Positions 45,950 through 49,531 of a stretch of DNA of 64,000 bases are shown here, piece after piece (the stretch's first letter is position 1; each line of letters starts with the position of its first letter). The stretch is from Roseateles aquatilis (GTDB lineage: Bacteria; Pseudomonadota; Gammaproteobacteria; Burkholderiales; Burkholderiaceae_C), in assembly GCF_002205645.1 (NCBI RefSeq), contig NZ_NIOF01000001.1, forward strand, positions 620,001 to 684,000, given 5' to 3'. Both the position numbers and the translations under genes were made by a program. Below the pieces are notes generated by a model that was given only the letters and a program-made list of their open reading frames with translations, was not told where the DNA came from and searched no databases.

Positions 45950-46498
45950 ATGTTCCAAGCCCGGCGCTATCAACATTGCTCCACCTGCGGCGGCCAGATC
46001 GAATACCGCATCCCGGCTGACGACAACCGGGAACGCGCCACCTGCACCGTGTGCGGGGCGATCCACTACGAGAACCCGCTGAACGTCGTCGGCACGCTGC
46101 CGATCTACGGCGAGCAGGTGCTGCTGTGCAAGCGCGCGATCGAGCCGCGGCTCGGCAAGTGGACGCTGCCGGCGGGTTTCATGGAGCTCGGCGAGACCAT
46201 CGCCGAAGGCGCGAAACGCGAAACCGACGAGGAAGCCGGCGCGCAGATCGAGCTGCAGGAGCTGTACTGCGTGATGAACGTGGTGCGCGTCGGCCAGGTC
46301 CATCTGTTCCACCGCGCCAGGCTGCTGAGCCCGGTGTTCGATCCCGGCCCGGAGACGCTGGAAGCGAAGCTGTTCCACGAGCATGAGGTGCCATGGGATG
46401 AGCTGGCCTTCCACACCGTTCGCGAAACGCTGCAGCGCTTCTTCGAGGATCGTCGCGGTGGCAACGGCTATCCGTTGCACGTGGCGGATATCGCCTGA
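45950..46498 (+). CDS. NUDIX hydrolase with N-terminal zinc ribbon
   Basis: 182 residues from the ATG at 45950. A Cys4-type zinc ribbon (CSTCGG and CTVCGAIHY, about 8-37) is followed by the NUDIX domain, whose box reads GFMELGETIAEGAKRETDEEAG with all the acidic residues in place. Many members with this ribbon hydrolyse NADH, FAD or ADP-ribose; the conserved YENPLNVVGTLP just before the domain is shared with that group. It is divergent from maiA with a 41-base gap, leaving very little room for separate promoters. Confidence 0.9.
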   Translation: MFQARRYQHCSTCGGQIEYRIPADDNRERATCTVCGAIHYENPLNVVGTLPIYGEQVLLCKRAIEPRLGKWTLPAGFMELGETIAEGAKRETDEEAGAQIELQELYCVMNVVRVGQVHLFHRARLLSPVFDPGPETLEAKLFHEHEVPWDELAFHTVRETLQRFFEDRRGGNGYPLHVADIA

Positions 46499-46509
46499 TC
46501 GTTCAACGA

Positions 46510-46881
46510 TCAGGACCATCGGGGACGCTCCCGCGACGAGGGACTCTGGACCAGTCGTTCGTCGAACGTGGCCACGGCCTCCTCGTGTGGCACGACGTCA
46601 CCCCGAAGCGCCGCCTTCACACCGTTGTCCTCTTGGCGCGCTATGAGCACCTCATGCAAGGTCACGTCCGGCTCTTCGGGATCGGTGCGCTCGACCCAGC
46701 GCTTGACGAGATGCTCGACCAGCTCGTTCATGTCGACGCTGATGCGACTGGCCAGCGCTTCGACGCGGGCCTTGAGTCGCTCGTCGATCTGGACGTGGAA
46801 ATCCGTGCGCGGCTGGGCCTCCACGGCCGCGTCAGCGCACACGGTGTTCTGCGCCAACACCTGATTTCGAACTCGCATCAT
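46510..46881 (-). CDS. Antitoxin-like protein B, second paralogue in a three-gene toxin-antitoxin unit
   Basis: 123 residues. A ribbon-helix-helix-like N-terminal part (FHVQIDERLKARVEALASRI) is followed by an acidic helical segment and the block ALRGDVVPHEE. It is clearly paralogous to the protein at 47162-47494: over 84 gap-free positions about 40 are identical by hand count. The ATG at 46881 overlaps the toxin stop (ATGA), so it is translationally coupled downstream of the toxin. An antitoxin normally comes before or after the toxin, not on both sides. The N-terminal 26 residues are unique to this copy. Its function is inferred only from the linked toxin. Confidence 0.75.
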   Translation of the reverse strand: MMRVRNQVLAQNTVCADAAVEAQPRTDFHVQIDERLKARVEALASRISVDMNELVEHLVKRWVERTDPEEPDVTLHEVLIARQEDNGVKAALRGDVVPHEEAVATFDERLVQSPSSRERPRWS

Positions 46882-47165
46882 TGCTCACCGGCGCCATGCG
46901 GCCGGAGTTGCGACGTGTGCCAGAACGACATGACCAGAATCGCCGCCTTGGCGATCACATAGTGAATCACGTAGTTCTCCTGAACGCCCTTCTCTCGCCG
47001 GCCGCGCTTGATCGCCTTGCCCAGGAAGGGAAACTGCTCCAACAGCCGTGACTGCTTCAGGCAGTCGCGCAACAGCACTTCCGCAGCGCGCGGGTTGCGG
47101 GCCGCGACGTACTCGTACTGATGTTGAAGTTGGGCAAGGGCTCGGCGGGTCCACGCGACCCTCAC
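46878..47165 (-). CDS. RelE/ParE superfamily toxin
   Basis: 95 residues from the GTG at 47165, which overlaps the stop of antitoxin-like gene A (GTGA). The ParE/RelE pattern is present: WTRRALAQLQHQYEYVAARN at the N-terminus, FPFLGKAIKRGRREKGVQEN in the middle, YVIHYVIAKAAILVMSFWHTSQ at the C-terminal strand. Family toxins inhibit DNA gyrase (ParE) or cleave mRNA on the ribosome (RelE); the sequence alone does not decide, though the motif layout favours ParE. It is flanked on both sides, in the same direction and with four-base overlaps, by two paralogous antitoxin-like genes. Confidence 0.85.
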   Translation of the reverse strand: MRVAWTRRALAQLQHQYEYVAARNPRAAEVLLRDCLKQSRLLEQFPFLGKAIKRGRREKGVQENYVIHYVIAKAAILVMSFWHTSQLRPHGAGEQ

Positions 47166-47494
47166 CGTTTCAGCCCCTGACGCTGTCGCGCATCCGTCAG
47201 CATGGCGTTGAAGGCGGCATCGAACTCGTCTTGCGGGACGAGATCGCCACGGAGCGCCTCCTTCATGGCCTGATCGTGCCGGAGTTCCAGCAGAGCCTCG
47301 GCTTCACTGACATCGGGGCTGTCGGGGGCCACCCTCAACAACCAGTCTTCGATCAAGCTCGACACCAACTCGTCGACGCCCACATGGATCCGCTGCGCGA
47401 TCGTCTCGATGCGCGCCTTGAGCTGCTCATCGATCTGGACGTTGAAGTTGGCGAGAGGCATGTAGGGTTCGATGGACTGAAAGACCGCGACCAT
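47162..47494 (-). CDS. Antitoxin-like protein A, first gene of the three-gene unit
   Basis: 110 residues from the ATG at 47494; Met12 is an alternative start that would begin at the conserved part. FNVQIDEQLKARIETIAQRI looks like a ribbon-helix-helix DNA-binding unit, followed by an acidic helical tail with ALRGDLVPQDEFDAAF, a typical toxin-binding form. It overlaps the toxin gene by four bases and is paralogous to protein B at 46510-46881. As the promoter-proximal gene it is the likely cognate antitoxin and autorepressor; this is inference. Confidence 0.78.
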   Translation of the reverse strand: MVAVFQSIEPYMPLANFNVQIDEQLKARIETIAQRIHVGVDELVSSLIEDWLLRVAPDSPDVSEAEALLELRHDQAMKEALRGDLVPQDEFDAAFNAMLTDARQRQGLKR

Positions 47495-47602
47495 TCTGCA
47501 CCTGCTCTTTCAACAACAAGAGGAAGGCGCGAATTCTGAGAGCTTCCGGGCGCATTGCAAGAGTGCTGAACGGCCCTCAAGCGTTGCACCGACTTCAACG
47601 AG

Positions 47603-49531
47603 TCAGGGCTTGATGCCCTGCGCCGATGCCCACGGCCCGGTGATCCCGTCGAGCTCGCAGTCCCACAACGCCTGCGCGTCGAGCGCATCGGTGACGCCTT
47701 CGGCGTACACCTTCAGCGCCAGGCTGCGCAGCATCACGACCAGGCTGCGCACGAACGCCGCGCGGCTAACGTCAGCCGACACCCCGGATACCACGGCGCT
47801 GTCGAGCTTCACGTAGTCCAGGCCCGCCTGGAAAAGACGATCAATTTGAGCCAGTCCCGCACCGGCGTGCTCCAGCCCCAACTGCACCCCGAGCGGACGC
47901 AGTTGCCGCCCCAGTTCCTGCAGCGCCTCGAAGTGCTGCACCGCCGCGGGCTCCGCGAGTTCGAGGCCGATCAGCCGCCGCACCGCCGCCGGCGCGGCCT
48001 GCACCAGCTCGCGCGCCCGGGCGATGAAGCTGCCGTCGTTCAGCGAGGCCGGCGCGACATTCACGCAGCGCGCGCGATGGTCCTGCTGCGAGGCCTGCAG
48101 CGCCAGCGCCAGGGCTTGCAGATCGGCCTCGGCGCTGAGCCGGTGGCGCAGCGCCAGCGGCAGCCAGCGCGCGGCCGGCTCGAAATCACCGACCGGATTC
48201 AGCTTCAACTGCAGCGGGCATTCCAGGTGCAGGACCTGGCGATCACGCCCGATCAGCGGGAACTCCAGCAGGCGGCTGCGCTGCTGTTGCAACGCGTCGG
48301 AAATCAAGGCGCGCCAGGCGCGTTCGCCCTGGGCGACTTCCTCCGAGGGCGGCGCCTCGCGCAACTCCAGCACCACGCCCTCGCCCAGCTCCGCGCGCGC
48401 CAGCGCCGCATCCGCCGCGGCGAACCACGCGCCCATCGGCTGATCGCGCATCAGCTCGACCGCGCCCATCGCGACGCCGACACCGGGGCCCAGGTTCTGC
48501 AGCCCGGCGCGCAAGGCCTCGGCCAGCGCGTGCGCGGTATCGCCGACGACGCCCGGCGCCGGCAGCCACAAGGCGAAGTCCGACCCGTTCAGGCGTCCCG
48601 CCAGACAACCCCGGACCTGCTCGGGATACACCCGCAAGGCCTGCGCGATCGCCATCAGCGCCTGGTCGGTCGCGCCGTGGCCCAACCGCTGATTCAGGCC
48701 CTGCAAGTCCTTCAGCCGAAGCAGCACCAGCCCCGCTCGCAGCGGCCCGTCGTCGCGCTCCAGCGCCGAGCTCAGCTCCGCCACGAACTGCCGACGATGC
48801 GACAGGCCCGTCAGCTCGTCGCACAGCAGTTGGTGATGCAGCGTGCGCAGCTGCTCGGCCTGCGCCTCGAACATCTGCCGGGTGCGCAGCACCATCGTGT
48901 TCATCGCGCTGGTGAGCTTGCGCATCTCCGGCACGCGTGGCTCCAGCACCGTCTCGAAACGTCCTTGCGACACGCCCTCGGCCTGCTGCACGGCGGTGTC
49001 CAGCGGCCGGCGCACCCGCGACAGCACCGCCGCCGCCGCCACGCCGGTCAGCACGCCCACCAGCAGCAGCCACGACGCGGTGCTCAGCGTCGAGCGCCAC
49101 AGCGCCTCGTGCACATACCCGGTCTGGCCGCGCAGCTCGACTTCGCCGATCGACTTCCAGCCGTCCGACACCTTGGCCACGCCCGGCGCCACGTCCAGCG
49201 GCAGCAAGGCCGCGAACCAACCCGGCGCGCGCGGCGCCTGCGGCGTTTCCAGATGACGCTCGAAGACCTGCGCGCCCTTGGCGTCGCGCCAACGCACGCT
49301 CTCGTACGCGCCCGCGTCGAACTGCGCCGAGATCAGCAGCGACATCAACTCCGCGTCGCCCTTCTGCTGCGACAGCGCCAGCGCCAGCGCGCTCGCGTTG
49401 TCGGCGTTCTTCAGTTGCGCCTGCGTCTGCAGCAGGTCGCGCAAGGACCAGGCGCTCACCGCGACGCCCCCCAGCGCCGAAGCCAGCACGGCGCCCAGGA
49501 CCAGGCACCAGATTTGTCTTATCAAGGACAT
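47603..49531 (-). CDS. lapD: LapD-like c-di-GMP receptor (degenerate GGDEF and EAL)
   Basis: 642 residues from the ATG at 49531. Membrane helices at about 5-27 and 152-170 enclose a periplasmic LapD_MoxY_N-type domain, followed by HAMP (171-225), GGDEF and EAL domains. Both catalytic signatures are broken: NGSDF at 315-319 in place of GGDEF, and ECP at 437-439 where EAL is expected. It should therefore bind c-di-GMP and signal across the membrane instead of making or breaking it. LapD sequesters the protease LapG when c-di-GMP is high, keeping surface adhesins attached. The lapG gene is directly upstream, 55 bases away. Confidence 0.88.
   Translation of the reverse strand: MSLIRQIWCLVLGAVLASALGGVAVSAWSLRDLLQTQAQLKNADNASALALALSQQKGDAELMSLLISAQFDAGAYESVRWRDAKGAQVFERHLETPQAPRAPGWFAALLPLDVAPGVAKVSDGWKSIGEVELRGQTGYVHEALWRSTLSTASWLLLVGVLTGVAAAAVLSRVRRPLDTAVQQAEGVSQGRFETVLEPRVPEMRKLTSAMNTMVLRTRQMFEAQAEQLRTLHHQLLCDELTGLSHRRQFVAELSSALERDDGPLRAGLVLLRLKDLQGLNQRLGHGATDQALMAIAQALRVYPEQVRGCLAGRLNGSDFALWLPAPGVVGDTAHALAEALRAGLQNLGPGVGVAMGAVELMRDQPMGAWFAAADAALARAELGEGVVLELREAPPSEEVAQGERAWRALISDALQQQRSRLLEFPLIGRDRQVLHLECPLQLKLNPVGDFEPAARWLPLALRHRLSAEADLQALALALQASQQDHRARCVNVAPASLNDGSFIARARELVQAAPAAVRRLIGLELAEPAAVQHFEALQELGRQLRPLGVQLGLEHAGAGLAQIDRLFQAGLDYVKLDSAVVSGVSADVSRAAFVRSLVVMLRSLALKVYAEGVTDALDAQALWDCELDGITGPWASAQGIKP

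Follow-up and report, generated by a model that had tools for sequence, protein, structure and literature searches.

Type II toxin-antitoxin pairs of the ParDE and RelBE kind have an antitoxin gene, usually of the RHH/CopG type, directly upstream of a PF05016 toxin gene and overlapping it. In the SpoIISABC system of Bacillus, one toxin and two related antitoxins are encoded together, and the two antitoxins are described as having arisen by gene duplication (PMC4926146, PMC6562991); SpoIISA is a membrane toxin, to which both antitoxins were reported to bind (PMC6562991). Orphan or anti-addiction antitoxins, which lack a toxin of their own and are found where a pair used to be or where a related one stands, have also been described (PMC7192599, PMC7354431). 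They are reported to be common, degraded pairs being one proposed source (PMC7192599), and anti-addiction was demonstrated for one CcdA, its common use by orphan antitoxins still having to be demonstrated (PMC7354431). In the main text of a recent survey of the RelE/ParE superfamily, the expressions "two antitoxins", "second antitoxin" and "orphan" do not occur (PMC11980606). Among open-licence PMC papers, we found no RelE/ParE operon with the order antitoxin-toxin-antitoxin.

A locus with this order is present in a stretch of 64,000 nucleotides from Roseateles aquatilis (hereafter, the window), where antitoxin A, toxin T, and antitoxin-like B are encoded in succession. The locus is a new arrangement of known parts, namely a pair of a known kind beside a probable orphan relative. 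It differs from ParDE and RelBE pairs in that a second, homologous antitoxin gene follows the toxin gene, and in that the family of A and B is a narrow one without an above-cut-off match in Pfam or NCBIfam. It resembles SpoIISABC in having one toxin and two related antitoxins, whereas B, judged from its sequence, looks like an older resident and not like a copy of A. Unlike other orphan antitoxins, B is located within what appears to be the operon of a different pair from its own family.

Gene layout and protein families

Antitoxin A (47494-47162; 110 aa, start ATG), a member of an RHH-like family, toxin T (47165-46878; 95 aa, start GTG) of the ParE/RelE superfamily, and antitoxin-like B (46881-46510; up to 123 aa, start ATG), a probable orphan antitoxin, are all encoded on the minus strand in the order A-T-B. 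The ORF reading of the window gave an overlap of GTGA between A and T and of ATGA between T and B, in agreement with the coordinates and overlaps of the first-pass annotation. If B starts at a second in-frame ATG, at 46878, its overlap with T shrinks to one base, and the database versions of the proteins start later (A, 99 aa in P0001; B, 122 and 115 aa in P0003 and P0004); the exact starts of A and B as called are not certain. The GGTGAG before the start codons of B could be a ribosome site. Domain matches agreed with the flanking genes named in the first-pass annotation: downstream, a convergent gene encodes a Zn-ribbon/NUDIX protein, and upstream, a lapD-like gene encodes a LapD_MoxY_N-GGDEF-EAL protein. 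A perfect dyad, TGATCGTT-G-AACGATCA, extends over 46496-46512 across the stop codons of B and the convergent NUDIX gene. A promoter and terminator scan of 46300-47800 yielded no match, a defence-library scan gave nothing convincing, and a search for a plasmid origin found no DNA match in the plasmid collection.

T scored 41.2 bits against Pfam PF05016 (ParE_toxin), above the gathering cut-off of 23, and 23.1 bits against NCBIfam RelE_StbE (TIGR02385), below the curated cut-off of 27.9. With A directly upstream of T and the two ORFs overlapping, the A-T pair has the layout of a type II operon. A single-sequence model of T consisted of helices only and was of poor confidence (pLDDT 69.5, pTM 0.51), and no PDB sequence matched T at E<=0.01. 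The plasmid collection contained T relatives at 32.6-34.1% identity in 13 records, and a second, distant relative of T was seen elsewhere in the same genome (L074, G000:C45:54814-55074; 29% identity, E 2.5e-5). Protein searches with T and with A matched only the window's own proteins, and that with B matched 19 proteins. Two of these are again the window's, and four of the other 17 have a named source, namely Mitsuaria sp., Roseateles sp. (two), and a Rubrivivax MAG; these searches required shared five-residue words, and distant relatives can therefore be missed.

BLASTP aligned A and B without gaps at 41/87 identical residues (E 3e-27 as a single comparison), close to the earlier hand count of about 40 in 84. 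The description of the locus as a RelE/ParE-type toxin between two homologous antitoxin-like genes is supported. Neither A nor B alone matched Pfam or NCBIfam above cut-off. In alignment A2, 10 of the 19 members, B not among them, matched RHH_1 at E<=0.1 (best 0.0015), and profile matches of the family to CopG regulators in the PDB were weak (E 0.13 and 0.32 at best). The model of B had helices at 26-46, 51-66, 75-93, and 99-112 and no strand (pTM 0.29); a fold search of the PDB with this low-confidence model returned one match at E<=10 and none at E<=0.001. The motif FxVQIDE, which is expected to be the DNA-contacting strand, was present in A, in B, and in 10 of the 11 other rows compared, being missing in the antitoxin of genus genome G350; A has the form FNVQIDE, as in G403. 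The antitoxin tree was weakly resolved, with 12 of its 20 inner branches open. A joined P0020 and P0021 (88/92) and B joined the G350 antitoxin (83/54), both on long, unstarred branches. The group tally of this tree for the two window rows, which sets them against three site-2 rows alone, was left out of the assessment. Among viral sequences, 91 stretches fitted the pattern of the antitoxin and none was confirmed as a relative.

Two further observations concern the same family. P0018 (176 aa) is apparently a member whose C-terminal half is broken up and to which a second RHH-like segment has been joined; judged by eye, it may be a further example of two adjoining antitoxin units. At other sites in three genus genomes (L046, L048, and L037), a distant relative of A and B is followed by an overlapping ParE-like ORF, and the start region, MNA-L-RID, resembles that at the lapD site.

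The lapD-NUDIX site across the genus

The interval between lapD and the NUDIX gene was read in all 16 genus genomes, the window's own included, and the two genes adjoin in every one of them. The toxin-antitoxin content of the site differs from species to species. In the window genome, the interval is 1110 bp long and holds A-T-B. It holds an antitoxin and its own PF05016 toxin in G403 (744 bp), an antitoxin and the C-terminal remnant of a toxin in G406 (516 bp), an antitoxin alone in G408 (468 bp), and a diverged antitoxin alone in G350 (467 bp). The 384-bp interval of G402 (L056) contains a partly kept leader followed by an 87-aa ORF without a Pfam match at E<=0.05, that of G407 (417 bp) has no family match, and those of the nine remaining genomes are 31-82 bp long; the lapD match ends early in G405 and G127, so that the sizes given for these two take in some lapD codons. 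The end of the 87-aa ORF in G402 is somewhat like an antitoxin tail, and no recognisable toxin accompanies it.

The toxin at the site in G403 (L040) likewise belongs to PF05016 and is identical to T in 35 of 90 residues. In G406, the toxin has been lost except for its end: the remnant shares 12 of 15 residues with the C-terminal end of T (score 69, shuffled maximum 42) and also resembles the G403 toxin (score 59, shuffled maximum 48), neither score being reached in 300 base shuffles. No toxin remnant above shuffles was found in the intervals of G408, G350, G402, and G407; in G408 and G350, the toxin has presumably been lost.

The leader between the lapD stop and the start of A (47495..47602, minus strand) matches the corresponding leaders of five other genus genomes with 71-84% identity. 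The identity to G403, G406, G408, and G350 was 83-84%, close to the 85-89% of the lapD 3' end, which is what inheritance of the leader together with the site would produce; the G402 leader, at 71%, fell below its lapD 3' end (85%). A pattern search allowing up to three mismatches found one copy of the 3' part of the leader in the whole of the window's own genome. At 47505..47522 (minus strand), the leader contains a short inverted repeat, CTCTT...AAGAG, within CTCTTG-N4-TGAAAGAG, which is a candidate operator. This pattern occurs once in the window with up to two mismatches (0.07 expected; at least one in 7 of 100 shuffles), and a version of it is found in the site loci of all five antitoxin-bearing genomes and is absent from the G402 locus.

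Counting the window genome, the leader stands beside lapD in 6 of the 16 genomes and a family antitoxin in 5 of them; the A2 profile matched six genus genomes, five of them at this site. The site is variable between species, but the proposal of the first-pass annotation that the whole three-gene unit is a recent insertion is not supported by these counts. In a tree of the lapD 3' end and the NUDIX gene, the five other leader carriers and the empty G400 formed one group (81), and the window genome fell outside it beside the empty G288 with weak support (66). The distribution fits an old arrival at the site with later losses, separate arrivals are possible, and A-T itself may be a recent arrival.

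The other 15 genus genomes have at most one family member each at the site. The first-pass annotation had considered that relatives might carry the A/T pair without B; the reverse was found, none of these 15 genomes having A-T and four having a B-type antitoxin without A and T. Indeed, A-T was found in no genome other than that of the window. In a wider set of 399 genomes from the bacterial family, the window's own among them, 3 were matched by the B sequence and 6 by the A2 profile, strongly only the window genome and G350. The A-T-B order, which the first-pass annotation had suggested looking for in other genomes, was found neither in the 15 other genus genomes nor at 29 loci of T relatives (L004-L032). 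The A2 profile had matches at 4 of these loci, all of them to ORFs that end where the toxin begins, with no downstream match; because the antitoxin upstream went undetected by this profile in the remaining 25, one of a different RHH type located downstream would escape it as well. In each of the 21 loci that were read, an ORF ended no more than 10 bases from the toxin start; by eye, the majority of these ORFs are RHH-like, and an informal reading of the downstream ORFs by eye saw no antitoxin-like one.

Origin and possible roles of B

Over a core of 69 residues, B is identical to the antitoxin at the same site in G406 at 59/69 positions, in G403 at 55/69, and in G350 at 42/68, compared with 34/69 for A. 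B is therefore not a recent copy of A, and its core suggests that it continues the resident antitoxin type of the site, A being the divergent one. Pairwise dN/dS against four site orthologs was 0.10-0.24 for B and 0.13-0.44 for A, several of the dS values being near saturation.

The stretch from B to the NUDIX gene contains no ORF. Since B is followed by no toxin gene and the relative G403 has a pair at the same site, B has the position of an orphan antitoxin; since T lies upstream of B, it is an orphan only if T is the partner of A. A search for a toxin remnant behind B gave scores matched by 297 of 300 shuffles against T and by 252 of 300 against the G403 toxin. Before B, a nine-base match to the leader was found, but 46 to 273 of 300 base shuffles scored as high, depending on the genome compared. 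As B has no leader of its own and the 3' part of the leader is single-copy in the genome, B probably depends on the A-T promoter.

In our view, B is probably the antitoxin that remains from an older pair resident at the site, the toxin of which has been lost, and the divergent A-T pair has come to stand between it and the shared leader. A and T would form an ordinary type II pair, in which A dimerises through its RHH-like N-terminal part, binds the leader, and represses, while its C-terminal part wraps T. B would be the antitoxin of an older pair at the lapD-NUDIX site, its former toxin having disappeared as in G406. With the divergent A-T pair in place between the leader and B, transcription from the A-T promoter would continue into B, whose translation would be coupled to that of T. 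The first approximately 22 and last approximately 15 codons of B, where the family's usual N-terminal start and tail are replaced, have no clear counterpart, which counts against this account of A-T stacked upstream of B. Further points against it are the lack of a toxin trace behind B, of a remnant in G408 and G350, and of A-T in any other genome found, together with the poorly resolved antitoxin tree and the weakly supported place of the window genome beside the empty G288.

These replaced ends could also mean that B is a decaying remnant without function, a reading that we regard as somewhat unlikely. Decay at the same site has precedents in G406, which keeps only a toxin remnant, and in G350, in which the antitoxin has diverged. 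B is nevertheless an intact ORF, and its low dN/dS against the four orthologs argues for constraint, even if this average spans any toxin-bearing past and some dS values are near saturation.

A working second neutraliser, with both antitoxins binding T and providing an antitoxin surplus, would be compatible with the stacking of A-T upstream of a resident B, and seems unlikely on balance. B retains the ALRGD-VP segment, a constrained core, and the ATGA coupling to T; two similar antitoxins were reported both to act on SpoIISA (PMC6562991), and in Klebsiella, two antitoxins with 71% identity were reported both to inhibit one HigB toxin (PMC7192599). The identity of A and B is well under that of the Klebsiella case, and the partner toxins of the family are themselves only 35/90 identical to each other. 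C-terminal tails are expected to decide toxin binding, and that of B is identical to the tail of A in 6 of 16 residues, to that of G403 in 5, and to that of G406 in 8. This difference from A, together with the replaced end, speaks weakly against a second neutraliser, because the tail of B is about as far from the site orthologs as from A; the tail comparison is hence indecisive on the binding of T by B.

B might instead act on the operator, the two antitoxins sharing or dividing repression, with A serving mostly to neutralise T and B mostly to repress, possibly by way of A-B heterodimers; this appears improbable. The leader motif also occurs in species with an antitoxin whose N part resembles that of B, and nearly all rows compared share FxVQIDE with A and B. 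The presence of FNVQIDE in A means, however, that A alone would suffice, and the model of B, with no strand and no PDB match at the stricter threshold, lends no help.

Finally, a recent tandem duplication of A, the origin of B that the gap-free A/B alignment had suggested, is rejected as hardly credible, since B is far closer to site orthologs of other species than to A, the distance of A to each of the 12 rows compared is much the same (30/68 to 38/69), and the synonymous differences between A and B are saturated; only rapid change or conversion of A could rescue it.

Possible tail exchange and the states of the site

P0020 and P0021 are identical in 67 of 69 residues of the N part up to ALRGD and in only 6 of 16 residues of the tail. 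The P0021 tail shares 12 of 16 residues with that of G403 and continues into a piece resembling the end of T, a score that none of 500 shuffles reached. These varying tails suggest an exchange of tails, perhaps with toxins along with them, and hint at tail swapping as a route to changed partner specificity. A bolder reading, which we hold to be distinctly unlikely, is that the lapD-NUDIX site is an exchange locus of toxin-antitoxin modules, at which the leader and the antitoxin's RHH half are retained, and the toxin and the antitoxin's C-terminal tail undergo exchange or loss. In the window, two allelic antitoxins would then be stacked in one operon, sharing the operator and dividing neutralisation and repression between them.

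A single syntenic site of this genus thus presents many states, namely empty, pair, remnant, lone antitoxin, and pair with orphan. It offers a means of asking if antitoxins persist longer than their toxins by chance, or because they protect against or regulate later arrivals.
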